Shown here: positions 13,722-17,129 of the stretch, in pieces
Layout: the number at the start of each line of letters is the position of its first letter
Numbering within the stretch: position 1 is the stretch's first letter
The notes under the pieces: model-generated
The model's input: only the letters and a program-made list of their open reading frames with translations
Databases searched by the model: none
What the model was told of the DNA's origin: nothing
Assembly: GCF_014195535.1 (NCBI RefSeq)
Contig: NZ_JACIBY010000001.1
Span: 434,001 to 498,000, forward strand
Origin: Runella defluvii
GTDB lineage: Bacteria > Bacteroidota > Bacteroidia > Cytophagales > Spirosomataceae
Length of the DNA: 64,000 nt
Direction of reading: 5' to 3'
Position numbers and translations under genes: made by a program

Positions 13722-14057
13722 ATGCTAAAACGACTGCGTTTACCCATGATTTCGGTGCATGTCCCCTTCCTTTGGGTAGGTGGACTGACATTTTTTCCGT
13801 GGGTCTTTTTTAAGAAACAAAATCCTCCTGCGTGGCTTATTAACCACGAGCGGATTCACCTGCGGCAACAGGCGGAGACGGGGCTGCTTCTGTTTTATGT
13901 TTGGTATCTTTTGGAATTCTTGGTGCGCCTTATCGTATATCGGCACCGCTATCGAGCCTATCGAAACATTTGTTTTGAACGCGAGGCGTATGCCAATGAC
14001 CAAAATTTGAGTTACCTCACTACCCGAAAACCGTGGGCATTTTGGAAGTATTTGTAA
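13722..14057 (+). CDS. small membrane protein with an HExxH zinc-protease motif
   Basis: From the ATG at 13722 this is 111 residues; an in-frame GTG at 13641 would add 27 residues without known motifs. It contains a first hydrophobic segment (about 15-30), an HERIH zinc-binding motif at 42-46 inside WLINHERIHLRQQAE, a second hydrophobic helix (about 54-73), and an acidic FEREAYAND segment (Glu 86, Glu 88) that could supply a third zinc ligand, as in minigluzincins. Similar short proteins occur in Bacteroidota without assigned function. It looks like a minimal membrane-embedded metallopeptidase, but activity is unproven. The promoter of the next gene begins inside its last codons. Confidence 0.7.
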   Translation: MLKRLRLPMISVHVPFLWVGGLTFFPWVFFKKQNPPAWLINHERIHLRQQAETGLLLFYVWYLLEFLVRLIVYRHRYRAYRNICFEREAYANDQNLSYLTTRKPWAFWKYL

Positions 14058-14071
14058 AAAAGTTACTTTTG
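14041..14071 (+). promoter_or_regulatory. promoter for the NAD(P)-binding protein gene, inside the end of the preceding gene
   Basis: TTTG at 14041-14044 and TACTTTTG at 14064-14071 are separated by 19 bases. The RNA would start near 14078, just before the structured leader, leaving about 120 untranslated bases, far longer than the 20-60 base leaders seen elsewhere in this window. Confidence 0.65.
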
Positions 14072-14084
14072 TCTCATTCAAATC

Positions 14085-14190
14085 TCTTTGTAAAAATACG
14101 CGAAACTTGGGTGGCTTCTGAGTATTACCATCCTGCTCAGTCGATGAAATAACGACTGATGCTTCTCTTATTTTTCAATTTTTACAAAGA
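14085..14190 (+). ncRNA. candidate structured 5' leader (cis-regulatory RNA), class unknown
   Basis: A perfect 13-base-pair closing stem (14085-14097 with 14178-14190) encloses two internal hairpins: 14109-14114/14128-14133 (GGGTGG with CCATCC, one G-U) and 14135-14143/14153-14162 (9 pairs with one bulge). This is a multi-branch junction as in riboswitches. It begins at the predicted transcript start and ends 6 bases before the ATG at 14197, so the closing stem could control access to the start codon. I do not recognise a known riboswitch class; an A/T-rich closing stem by chance is possible. Confidence 0.45.
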
Positions 14191-14196
14191 CTTTTT

Positions 14197-14853
14197 ATGA
14201 ATTCTTCCCCAATTATTGCCGTGATAGGCGGCACAGGTAAATCAGGCGCTTATTTAGTGAAAGAATTGCTTCGACAAGGCTTTCGTTTGAAGTTATTGAT
14301 TCGTGATGCTTCTTCGCGAGACTTACCTTTGTTTTATAACCATCCTGCTGTTGAAATTTTGGAGGGCAATATCCGAGATTATGAAGTCGTGCGTCGGTTG
14401 ATGCAAGGCTGCGACGCGGTGATAAGTACGTTGGGTTTGGGTATCCCTAACAGTGAACCTACAATCTTTAGTCAATCTACACAAAACATACTTAGAGCGA
14501 TGAACGAGTGTAACATCGAACGGTATATTGTGACGACAGGATTGAACGTAGATACGCCTTTTGACAAAAAAAGCGCTAAAACGCAGTTCTCAACTGAATG
14601 GATGAAAACCAATTTTCCGATTTCTACCGCCGATAAACAACGAGAATATGAACTTTTGAGCAGCAGCGAAGCGCAGTGGACATTGGTTCGGCTTCCACTT
14701 ATCGAGCTGACGGATAGTCGAAAAAAGGTGTTAATAAGTACAGAAGACATGCTGGGTGAAAGAATTAGCGCAACCGATTTGGCGTGTTTTCTAATAACTC
14801 AACTCAGTGACCGTACATATTGGCAAAAAGCGCCGTTTATTGGCTCAGTATGA
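14197..14853 (+). CDS. NAD(P)-binding atypical SDR / NmrA-like protein
   Basis: A 218-residue Rossmann-fold protein. The N-terminal dinucleotide motif is AVIGGTGKSGAYLV (GGTGxxG), followed by DAVISTLGLG at the end of strand 4. It belongs with NAD(P)H-binding (NmrA/atypical SDR) proteins, which either reduce small metabolites or sense NADPH. There is no classical YxxxK pair at the expected site, which favours a binding or sensor role or an atypical reductase. A promoter and a long, structured leader precede it. The DUF5916 gene follows after about 41 bases with its own -7 element. Confidence 0.82.
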   Translation: MNSSPIIAVIGGTGKSGAYLVKELLRQGFRLKLLIRDASSRDLPLFYNHPAVEILEGNIRDYEVVRRLMQGCDAVISTLGLGIPNSEPTIFSQSTQNILRAMNECNIERYIVTTGLNVDTPFDKKSAKTQFSTEWMKTNFPISTADKQREYELLSSSEAQWTLVRLPLIELTDSRKKVLISTEDMLGERISATDLACFLITQLSDRTYWQKAPFIGSV

Positions 14854-14854
14854 G

Positions 14855-14862
14855 TAGTTTTG
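14855..14862 (+). promoter_or_regulatory. -7 promoter element for the DUF5916 gene
   Basis: TAGTTTTG (TAnnTTTG) begins just after the stop of the preceding gene and 32 bases before the ATG at 14895. No good -33 TTTG is seen at 19-21 bases. Confidence 0.45.
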
Positions 14863-14894
14863 TGGCTTGTTAACCTAAACTGTTTTGCGTATCG

Positions 14895-17129
14895 ATGAGA
14901 CTTTTACTGTTGTTGTGTTTGCCCCTTTTTGCTTTTGCCCAAACGGCGCCGCCTTATCAAGTCAAGTTTACGACGGAAAAAATAAAAATTGACGGTGTGC
15001 TTGACGAACAGACCTGGGCGGCTATTCCTACGATTGGTACGTTTTGGCAGTATTTCCCCGCCGATACGCTCAAGGCTGTTTACAAAACCGAAGTGAAATT
15101 GACCTTTGATGACAAAAACATCTACGTCAGTGCCAAATGCCACGCGCAACATAAAAACTACGTGGTTTTGTCGTATCGTCGGGATTATCGGGCAGGCAGC
15201 AACGACAACGTGAGTTTTATCTTCGATACGTTCAACGACCGCACCAATGCCTTTCTGTTTGGTACCAATCCTTTGGGCGTCATGCGGGAGGCATTGCTGT
15301 ACAATGGAGCTACCGACAATACATTCTTCAGTGAGTTTTGGGACAATAAATGGACGGCCGAGTCAAAAATTTACGACAACTATTGGACCACTGAAGTAGC
15401 CATTCCGTTTACAACCCTGCGTTTTAAAGAAGGAACTACCCAGTGGTTGTTTAAAAGCTACCGTTTTGATACCCAAATCAATGAACAAAGTACGGTAGTT
15501 CAAATACCCCAAAATCAATTGATTATGAATTTGGGGTATTCCATTCCCATTGTTTTTGAAAAACCACTGCGTAAAACGGGGGCGAACATTTCGTTGATTC
15601 CGTACATTGCGACGGGCAATTCACAAGATTTTGTCAATCGCAATAACCCCAACAACGGCACGCGTTTCAACGTAGGCGGGGATGCTAAAATCGCCGTGAC
15701 GTCGGGACTAAATTTGGACTTGACTGTTAATCCTGACTTTTCCAATGTTGAAGCCGACCGCCAGATCATTAACCTTACTCGTTTTGACATAAACCTTCCC
15801 GAGCAGCGTCAGTTTTTTCTCGAAAATTCCGACTTGTTTTCGGGCTTTGGCAGCTACGTTATCAATCCGTTTTTGCCTCCTCAAGGCAATTTGGGCGGTG
15901 CAGGAAACCAAATTTTAAGTCCCTTTTTCTCCCGTCAAATTGGTATTGCCAAAGATTCGACCACAGGATTGGGCGTACCGAATCGCATTGTATATGGAGC
16001 GCGATTGAGTGGTAAGTTGGATGATAACTGGCGCATAGGTTTGTTGAATGCCCAAACAGCGGACGACGAGTTTAAAGGGATTTCGGGCGCTAATTTTGCC
16101 GTGGCGTCGGTGCAGCGGAAGGTGTTTAGTCGCTCTAACATTGCGGCGATTTTTGTCAATAAACAAACCTTACATCCCGAAATGGGTCGGAATTTGTCAA
16201 GTTTCAACCGTGTGGGAGGGTTGGAGTATAATTTTACTTCGCGAGACAGCCGTTGGCAAGGCAAAGCGTATTATCACCAGTCATTCAGCGAAAACAAACA
16301 AAAAGATGCGTTTGCAAACGGTTTTTCGTTGATGTACAGCGTCCTGAAATACACGTTTCGTTGGGCACACGATTGGGTAGGAAAAGGCTACGACGCCGAA
16401 GTGGGCTTTGTGCCACGCAAGGACTTTTTGCGTATCAATCCAACGCTCGGATTTTCGTTTTATCCCCGAACGCGCTTGGTCAATCGGTACAGCGTAGGAG
16501 TAGCGTTGGAGCAATATTCGATGCCTAATGTGGGTGTCACCGACCTTACAGCGGGGCCATTTTTGTCGATGTCGTTTCAGAGTTCAGCACGAATGCTCTT
16601 ATCGTTGAACCAAAACTATACCTACCTATTCTCGGATTTTGATGCTTTACGAAGCAACGGTAAATTGCCATCACTGAAGCAGGGAGGAAGTTATACGTAC
16701 TACAATGCGTCGTTGAATTACTTCTCTGACCAGCGCAAAAAATGGTGGTTGTTTGCGCAGCCGCTCGTTGGGCAGTATTATGATGGAACAATTGTGAGTT
16801 TAGCGGGTTCTATTAACTACCGTTACCAACCTTATATCGCGTTGGCAATGAATTTTACGTACAACCGCATCAACCTCCCGATTGGTGACAACAATGTGTT
16901 TTTGTTGGGGCCGCGGTTAGACTGGACGTTTTCAAAAAAAGTGTTTTTGACGACCTTTTTACAATACAACAGTCAGTTTGAGAACATGAACGTCAACACT
17001 CGTTTTCAATGGCGTTTTGCGCCCGTATCGGATTTCTTTTTGGTGTATATCGACAATTATAATACAGCCAATGGCCAATCAAGAAACCGTTCTATTCAGG
17101 CAAAATTGACCTATTGGTTCAATTTGTAG
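14895..17129 (+). CDS. DUF5916 protein with N-terminal family 9 carbohydrate-binding-like domain
   Basis: A 744-residue exported protein. It has a signal peptide (LLLLCLPLFAFAQ) and then a CBM9-like domain (KIDGVLDEQTWAAIPTIG through VAIPFTTLRF, about residues 25-210). A long DUF5916 region follows that looks like an outer-membrane beta-barrel: LDLTVNPDFSNVEADRQ, LPEQRQFFLENSDLF and many aromatic-rich strands, ending in LTYWFNL with a terminal hydrophobic residue as in barrel proteins. The family is common in Bacteroidota, often near protease or carbohydrate-use genes; its role is not established. Neighbours give no clear pathway link. Confidence 0.88.
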   Translation: MRLLLLLCLPLFAFAQTAPPYQVKFTTEKIKIDGVLDEQTWAAIPTIGTFWQYFPADTLKAVYKTEVKLTFDDKNIYVSAKCHAQHKNYVVLSYRRDYRAGSNDNVSFIFDTFNDRTNAFLFGTNPLGVMREALLYNGATDNTFFSEFWDNKWTAESKIYDNYWTTEVAIPFTTLRFKEGTTQWLFKSYRFDTQINEQSTVVQIPQNQLIMNLGYSIPIVFEKPLRKTGANISLIPYIATGNSQDFVNRNNPNNGTRFNVGGDAKIAVTSGLNLDLTVNPDFSNVEADRQIINLTRFDINLPEQRQFFLENSDLFSGFGSYVINPFLPPQGNLGGAGNQILSPFFSRQIGIAKDSTTGLGVPNRIVYGARLSGKLDDNWRIGLLNAQTADDEFKGISGANFAVASVQRKVFSRSNIAAIFVNKQTLHPEMGRNLSSFNRVGGLEYNFTSRDSRWQGKAYYHQSFSENKQKDAFANGFSLMYSVLKYTFRWAHDWVGKGYDAEVGFVPRKDFLRINPTLGFSFYPRTRLVNRYSVGVALEQYSMPNVGVTDLTAGPFLSMSFQSSARMLLSLNQNYTYLFSDFDALRSNGKLPSLKQGGSYTYYNASLNYFSDQRKKWWLFAQPLVGQYYDGTIVSLAGSINYRYQPYIALAMNFTYNRINLPIGDNNVFLLGPRLDWTFSKKVFLTTFLQYNSQFENMNVNTRFQWRFAPVSDFFLVYIDNYNTANGQSRNRSIQAKLTYWFNL

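Follow-up and report, generated by a model that had tools for sequence, protein, structure and literature searches.

A conserved three-way-junction leader upstream of a reductase-like gene in Bacteroidota is a candidate cis-regulatory RNA

Within the window, a 64,000-nucleotide stretch of the Runella defluvii genome, there is a structured leader directly upstream of a gene for an NAD(P)-binding, reductase-like protein of 218 amino acids (PF13460; 14197..14853). This gene and all features of the leader lie on the + strand. Comparison with related genomes shows a common fold with covarying stems, a fixed register relative to the promoter, a near-fixed distance to the AUG and linkage to one gene. 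Since fold, start point and near-fixed AUG distance have been kept in front of a single reductase-like gene, the leader is very probably an RNA switch. Judged from the sequence comparison, it is likely to act in cis on translation of the one gene behind it, with an unpaired 5' tail and the junction sensing an effector and the closing stem as the movable part.

The segment 14076-14199 has a minimum free energy of -29.2 kcal/mol (z = -4.26), and none of 200 shuffled sequences was equally stable; a longer segment, 14078-14220, gave z = -3.39. The predicted fold is a three-way junction. The closing stem P1 is formed by 13 bp in the window, between a 5' strand at 14085..14097, which is changed on both sides of its pairs in relatives, and a 3' strand at 14178..14190 that ends 6 nt before the AUG, and its arms are separated by 80 bases. 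P1 encloses the hairpins P2 (14109..14133; 14109-14114/14128-14133, 6 bp) and P3 (14135..14162; 14135-14143/14153-14162, 9 bp), which correspond to helix 4 and to helices 5 and 6, respectively, of the 58-leader alignment A10 described below. P3 is connected to P1 by a 3' junction strand (14163..14177) with conserved T columns, T being found in 45/58, 46/57 and 56/58 of the A10 rows having a letter there. A sequence-only reading of this DNA had placed the three stems at just these coordinates, with P1 ending 6 bases before the ATG at 14197, and the computed fold reproduces both. No second copy of the leader was found by DNA match in its own genome. There is no terminator-like site (a terminator hairpin followed by a U run) within 13900-14300, and the leader thus does not have the make-up of an intrinsic-terminator attenuator.

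The -7 promoter element TACTTTTG lies at 14064..14071 and is of the sigma-A type TAHHTTTG. The published element is described as T-12 A-11 T-8 T-7 T-6 G-5, with G virtually absent in between (PMC6847099), and TAHHTTTG is placed at -12 to -5 (PMC9723704). In the 58 leaders of A10 the element stands in one constant register with respect to the RNA motif, the six positions being T in 56, A in 57, T in 56, T in 58, T in 49 and G in 42 leaders, and the two middle positions are G in 0/58 and 1/58. By sequence and register it therefore has the form of a sigma-A (ABfr) promoter. Further upstream little is conserved beyond the adjoining AT-rich stretch and a mild preference for T near -33, where the window has TTTG (14041..14044; T in 35/58 and 34/58 leaders). 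The -7 half of the promoter proposed in the sequence-only reading fits the published element, and its TTTG half is a weak -33-like element.

Transfer of the published -12 to -5 placement to TACTTTTG puts +1 at the A of position 14076, 2 nt upstream of the start near 14078 that had been proposed earlier. The message should then begin 5'-AUUCAAAUC, which forms a predicted unpaired tail (14076..14084) conserved over the 58 rows of A10: A in 58, T in 58, T in 54, A or C in 46 and 12, a mixed position, A in 57, A or C in 45 and 11, T in 57 and C in 55, or AUU(A/C)NANUC in the RNA. No pseudoknot between the tail and the P2 loop, the P3 loop or the 3' junction was detected against shuffled stretches, the mean longest complement being 3.0, 2.9 and 4.1 compared with 2.9, 2.9 and 4.3 after shuffling. 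On inspection by eye, a strand exchange between tail and P1 is conceivable where the tail reads AUUAAAAUC. It was not adopted, because the window (AUUCAAAUC) and the leaders L024, L031, L032 and L035 lack the match.

The stems were examined in two alignments. In an unfitted MAFFT alignment of 33 leaders (A2), RNAalifold predicted P1 alone, with nine pairs of which seven were changed on both sides. In the model-fitted A10, 90.0% of the cells are paired, compared with 66.9% for shuffled and 45-53% for slid versions, and two-sided changes occur in 30 of the 34 pairs, among them every pair of P2 (9/9) and of P3 (9/9). Two inner P1 pairs depart from pairing only through unpaired cells. The model both shaped A10 and selected its rows; the compensatory changes support P1 in the unfitted alignment and all stems in the fitted one. 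It was made from 70 sources, minus nine without a model match and minus L056-L058, which gave minus-strand matches too; same-genome duplicates (such as L050, L063-L085, L097-L099, L101 and L103-L108), the chance matches L119 and L120 and the distant homologues L109-L117 had been omitted beforehand. The loops of P2 and P3 are variable in sequence and length. G-U cells outnumber A-C cells by 110 to 53, as expected of the sense strand, and an antisense RNA was rejected since minus-strand matches are far weaker (35.4 versus 109.7 bits in L058). The leader is placed constantly between the promoter and the start codon of the homologous gene. Checks in relatives thus found both conservation of the leader and covariation of the 13-bp stem, and the earlier proposal of an undescribed cis-regulatory RNA is strengthened by conservation before orthologues in other families and by stems changed on both sides.

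As a check independent of this fitting and selection, we added a model-free test. For this, 54 orthologue leaders were picked by protein match alone, covering homologues down to about 40% identity (30 loci of the window's family, 12 of 13 loci from named genomes and 12 from a phylum sample). Their median z was -4.1, with z < -2 in 48, the junction shape in 46 and both in 42 by hand count from the exceptions. The control comprised 77 regions upstream of other ORFs of at least 200 aa in L051-L062 and the window, taken from six frames with overlaps unfiltered. Here the median z was -0.46, with z < -2 in 14, the shape in 14 and both in 1. In A10, every one of the 58 leaders combines z < -2 (median -4.8) with the junction shape; among 3480 shuffles of these model-selected leaders the shape appeared in 686.

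The geometry before the start codon could be counted in 57 leaders, L086 giving no start. P1 ends 4-7 nt before the AUG in 54 of them, the length from +1 to the AUG is 101-138 nt (median 120), and there is an A at -3 in 37. An ATG-started ORF of at least 5 codons is present in 32/57 leaders, at scattered positions, and 19/57 contain no ATG at all. A leader-peptide attenuator was rejected on these grounds, as the short ORFs share no common place. P1 differs from the other stems in composition, with G-C pairs making up 12% compared with 41% for P2 and 39% for P3. From AT-rich to GC-rich leaders the G-C share rises from 0.11 to 0.17 in P1 (rho 0.35, p 0.007), from 0.23 to 0.63 in P2 (rho 0.59) and from 0.32 to 0.49 in P3 (rho 0.47). 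P1 may be kept weak and partly fixed in sequence because it must open or be recognised.

Orthologous loci were taken as the best 30 from 150 genomes of the window's family, together with 13 from named genomes (Runella, Dyadobacter, Flavobacterium, Algoriphagus, Chryseobacterium, [Flexibacter] and a MAG). One relative, G002, matches the window across the locus at 94% DNA identity. A 5' block like [CT]ATT[AC]AAATC, its letters chosen by eye, could be placed in 40 of 42 distinct leaders, L055 having it further upstream and L049 having none, and most have the closing stem. A covariance model built from seven Flavobacterium-type leaders (R1) found leaders of the window's family that it had not seen (L025, 6e-11; L026, 1e-9; L023, 1e-8). 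Searched against the window's own genome, with 150 of 1392 candidates scored, it gave the window leader as the only match at E ≤ 10, and a weak one (26.6 bits, E 2.08).

A second model (R2, 25 leaders; one match per genome) matched 24/150 genomes of the window's family (E ≤ 1) and, at E ≤ 0.1, 12/395 genomes of the phylum sample and 4/199, 10/151 and 6/147 genomes of three other families. These are 51 distinct genomes, and in 49 (34/34 and 15/17 loci) an orthologue with PF13460 lies directly behind the match. The remaining two matches (L119 and L120) are weak (E 0.004 and 0.06) and have no orthologue; inspection by eye showed no -7 element where one would be expected, and we take them to be chance matches. 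In the phylum sample a close orthologue (E < 1e-50) is present in 14 genomes, 12 of which have an R2 match; the misses are G358 and G412. There was no match in the other 381 genomes among the best first-look candidates scored per genome, and these 381 include four with more distant homologues, at 38% identity in G020 and at 34-36% in three others. The large R2 runs scored no more than the 9 to 24 best first-look candidates of a genome, under stricter filters, so further divergent copies could be missed. A deeper run (20 genomes, 150 candidates each, E ≤ 5) returned the same 12 orthologue leaders and nothing in five genomes. Four weak matches elsewhere (E 0.49-1.97; G151:C1:3840839-3840962, G005:C1:730359-730411, G358:C1:2874602-2874706 and G412:C35:34123-34213) are at the level expected by chance.

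The nine of the 70 sources without a model match are L034, L036, L037, L039, L049, L052, L055, L100 and L102. By eye, L034, L036, L037, L039 and L100 have the 5' block and P1, and P1 is doubtful in L052. In L034, L036, L037 and L039 the P1 sequence is quite different, and these would widen the covariation record. The leader of Chryseobacterium indologenes (L055, upstream of 2986) and the similar one of G358 (L102) keep the 5' block as ATTAAAATCTC and have no clear P1; they run on into a local hairpin and a longer leader of ~200 nt with another fold, and may represent either a divergent variant or a replacement. By eye no such leader was seen in L049 or before the 38-40%-identical homologues L113-L117.

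Four genomes of the same genus (G001, G006, G011 and G012) have a second lineage of the gene, at 61-62% identity, which is accompanied in each by a leader copy of its own and lies on a contig different from that of the window's locus; G011 has no match to that locus. At the corresponding place in G007, of the same genus, the last codons of the gene remain (about 1862-1972 of L012 against window 14814-14908; alignment score 66, compared with a maximum of 27 in 200 shuffles), and the leader and the rest of the gene are missing. The order there is the upstream gene, the remnant of the 3' end and a DUF5916 gene. Insertion of a cassette had been suspected, because the gene is absent at this place from other genomes of the genus. 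It was rejected for G007 alone, where the intergenic stretch keeps the 3' end of the gene and so points to loss, leader and gene seeming to have gone together.

In Pfam the encoded protein matches NAD_binding_10 first (9e-32) and NmrA second (1.6e-13, above its cut-off). Its predicted structure has a mean pLDDT of 90.3 (14 sequences). The nearest solved structure is human biliverdin IX-beta reductase (E 1e-14, 23% identity), other near ones are small NAD(P)-binding reductase- or epimerase-like proteins, and the top phmmer match is a flavin/biliverdin reductase. No NCBIfam model scored above its cut-off for the three proteins scanned. On these predictions the protein resembles the biliverdin-IX-beta/flavin reductases and is not a proven NADPH sensor. 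The NADPH-sensor-like family assigned in the sequence-only reading has the second-ranked NmrA match behind it, but the closest match is not NmrA and the nearest structures are reductases. Among the 13 named loci and the window, neighbouring genes are common only to loci of the Flavobacterium type and, separately, to the window and R. limosa. In the Flavobacterium type, genes of the ATP synthase alpha/beta and delta/epsilon families are found upstream and an aminotransferase downstream; the neighbours thus give no general clue to function. In seven Flavobacterium-type genomes (L053, L054 and L056-L060) the next gene on the same strand, Aminotran_1_2 in L053, begins about 80 bases downstream and is possibly co-transcribed.

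How might the leader work? Flavobacterium johnsoniae mRNAs are described as lacking Shine-Dalgarno sequences, with initiation tuned by structure near the start codon and by an A at -3 (PMC6847099). As the stem ends 4-7 nt before the AUG and neither a terminator-like site nor a common ATG-started short ORF was found, we read the leader as a translation switch. Transcription from 14076 would give the unpaired tail AUUCAAAUC followed by the junction of P1, P2 and P3. Closed P1 would hold back initiation and opened P1 would let translation proceed; since the AUG lies outside P1, blocking may be partial. The tail, P1 and the junction nucleotides could together form the effector-sensing site, with P2 and P3 as its scaffold, and the effector would set whether P1 blocks the start region. 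Linkage to one gene fits both a metabolite and the gene's own protein as effector. If the leader is such a switch, our tentative preference is for a small molecule handled by the enzyme, that is, a riboswitch; the encoded protein itself would be a less likely effector, and anything else slightly less likely again.

Taken over all readings, a metabolite riboswitch, whose junction and tail bind a substrate, product or cofactor of the reductase (a flavin, a tetrapyrrole or a nicotinamide compound), is a possibility to be held with reserve. The three-way junction, the conserved unpaired nucleotides and a P1 adjoining the start codon are what it would lead us to expect, and the variable loops of P2 and P3 and the missing tail-loop pseudoknot are not. 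Metabolite riboswitches more typically spread over several genes than stay linked to one. Association with several genes of one pathway, usual in riboswitches and not obligatory, is not seen here, where among the best candidates scored 49 of the 51 genome matches lie before one family and none before another, barring the two chance-like ones. The yjdF motif, as presented in PMC4793209, shows that near-exclusive association with one gene is possible, and the icd-II motif is described as a junction of three stems with the ribosome-binding site in P1 (PMC8632094).

Autogenous control, in which the NAD(P)-binding protein would bind the tail, P1 and junction of its own leader and repress its own translation, is somewhat unlikely when set beside all other readings, and it draws on the same linkage: the RNA stands before this gene family in those 49 matches, is found in none of the 381 phylum-sample genomes without a close orthologue, and seems to have been lost together with the gene in G007, while neighbouring genes are shared only within the groups of loci named above. 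The sequence of P1 and the tail is conserved, as a protein site would be. Among the best candidates per genome, the RNA is thus found only before the gene of the protein that would bind it; a dedicated metabolite switch fits equally, as a metabolite handled by this enzyme alone predicts identical linkage. Against it, the protein is Rossmann-fold and reductase-like, with no RNA-binding domain seen.

A 5' structure of constant geometry could also protect the 5' end of the mRNA or fix a constant level of translation, with no sensing. This is improbable, as such a role needs neither conserved single-stranded nucleotides nor linkage to one gene, and a protective hairpin would be expected before other genes, of which the candidates scored held no convincing case. 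Still less probable is an RNA thermometer, with an AU-rich P1 that merely melts as the temperature rises. It would account for the low G-C share of P1, which barely follows the GC content of the leader where that of P2 does, and for its position just before the AUG; but the AUG is not inside P1, and the conserved tail and junction nucleotides, the two covarying hairpins and the sequence conservation of P1 exceed what a melting stem needs. We consider it very improbable that the leader is read through its 5' end, by a protein or fold that recognises an NAD- or flavin-initiated (cofactor-capped) terminus. This is conceivable because the predicted +1 is an A that is conserved and opens a near-invariant tail, and because the gene product is NAD(P)-binding; if true, the cofactor level at initiation would set translation of the reductase. 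Finally, the inverted repeat CTTTRTAAAA...TTTTAYAAAG, which adjoins the promoter and whose arms lie 80 bases apart in the window, is most improbably a DNA-level feature, either two operator half-sites in inverted orientation or repeats at the ends of a small mobile element, given that P2 and P3 covary too (18/18 pairs changed on both sides), that the orientation before the one gene is constant and the distance nearly so, that G-U exceeds A-C, and that DNA matching showed no further copy in the genome and no plasmid match.

The earlier reading had recognised no known riboswitch, in agreement with Rfam 15, where no model matches the leader in the window or in 18 loci of relatives. The window gave no match, nor did the 281 bases around the leader up to E 10. 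In 12 relatives there was none on the leader, the one match being a cobalamin riboswitch elsewhere in L062, and six further loci gave three matches below the gathering score, none on the leader. The cobalamin riboswitch (L062 1807-2014, - strand, 98.7 bits) lies near the same gene in a Bacteroidetes MAG and is unrelated to the leader. Limited literature searches, with supplements outside their reach, found no description of the motif, and the main texts of surveys of motifs in 26 and in 50 genomes contain no words beginning Bacteroid or Flavobacter. A 2017 paper reportedly covers 224 motifs, and this one may be among them. On Rfam 15 and these searches, the leader appears to be undescribed.

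There are partial likenesses to known systems, as far as the sources describe them. The icd-II motif is likewise a three-stem junction, its first stem including the ribosome-binding region, and lies upstream of a dehydrogenase gene (PMC8632094); it is likened here by description only and belongs to another gene in other bacteria. The yjdF motif, the azaaromatic riboswitch, is likewise linked almost exclusively to one gene of unknown role (PMC4793209), but the gene is a different one and no Rfam model matches our leader. Leaders of ribosomal proteins are autogenous structured leaders tied to a gene whose product may bind them (PMC7247131), whereas the product here is reductase-like. The nadA and pnuC motifs (NAD+-I and NAD+-II riboswitches) have the nicotinamide cofactor theme in common, and pnuC can sequester the ribosome-binding site; nadA consists of two tandem bulged stem-loops (PMC7297122) in contrast to the three-way junction found here. 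From the same phylum, and also found by comparison, are Bacteroid-trp, Bacteroidales-1, Bacteroides-1, Flavo-1 and 6S-flavo (PMC2864571), which differ in carrying Rfam accessions. Structured 5' elements of Flavobacterium psychrophilum are likewise Bacteroidota leaders without Rfam matches, the named examples being pheA, hisG, ftsY, acsA, alaS and rimP; overlap with the 64 leaders of Table S7 is possible (PMC9723704).

With its defined fold, predicted start site and single target gene, the leader is a well-supported orphan regulatory RNA of bacteria that translate without reliance on Shine-Dalgarno pairing. Naming its effector would tell the role of an unnamed family of reductase-like proteins, and would also show how an RNA gates initiation without a Shine-Dalgarno sequence.
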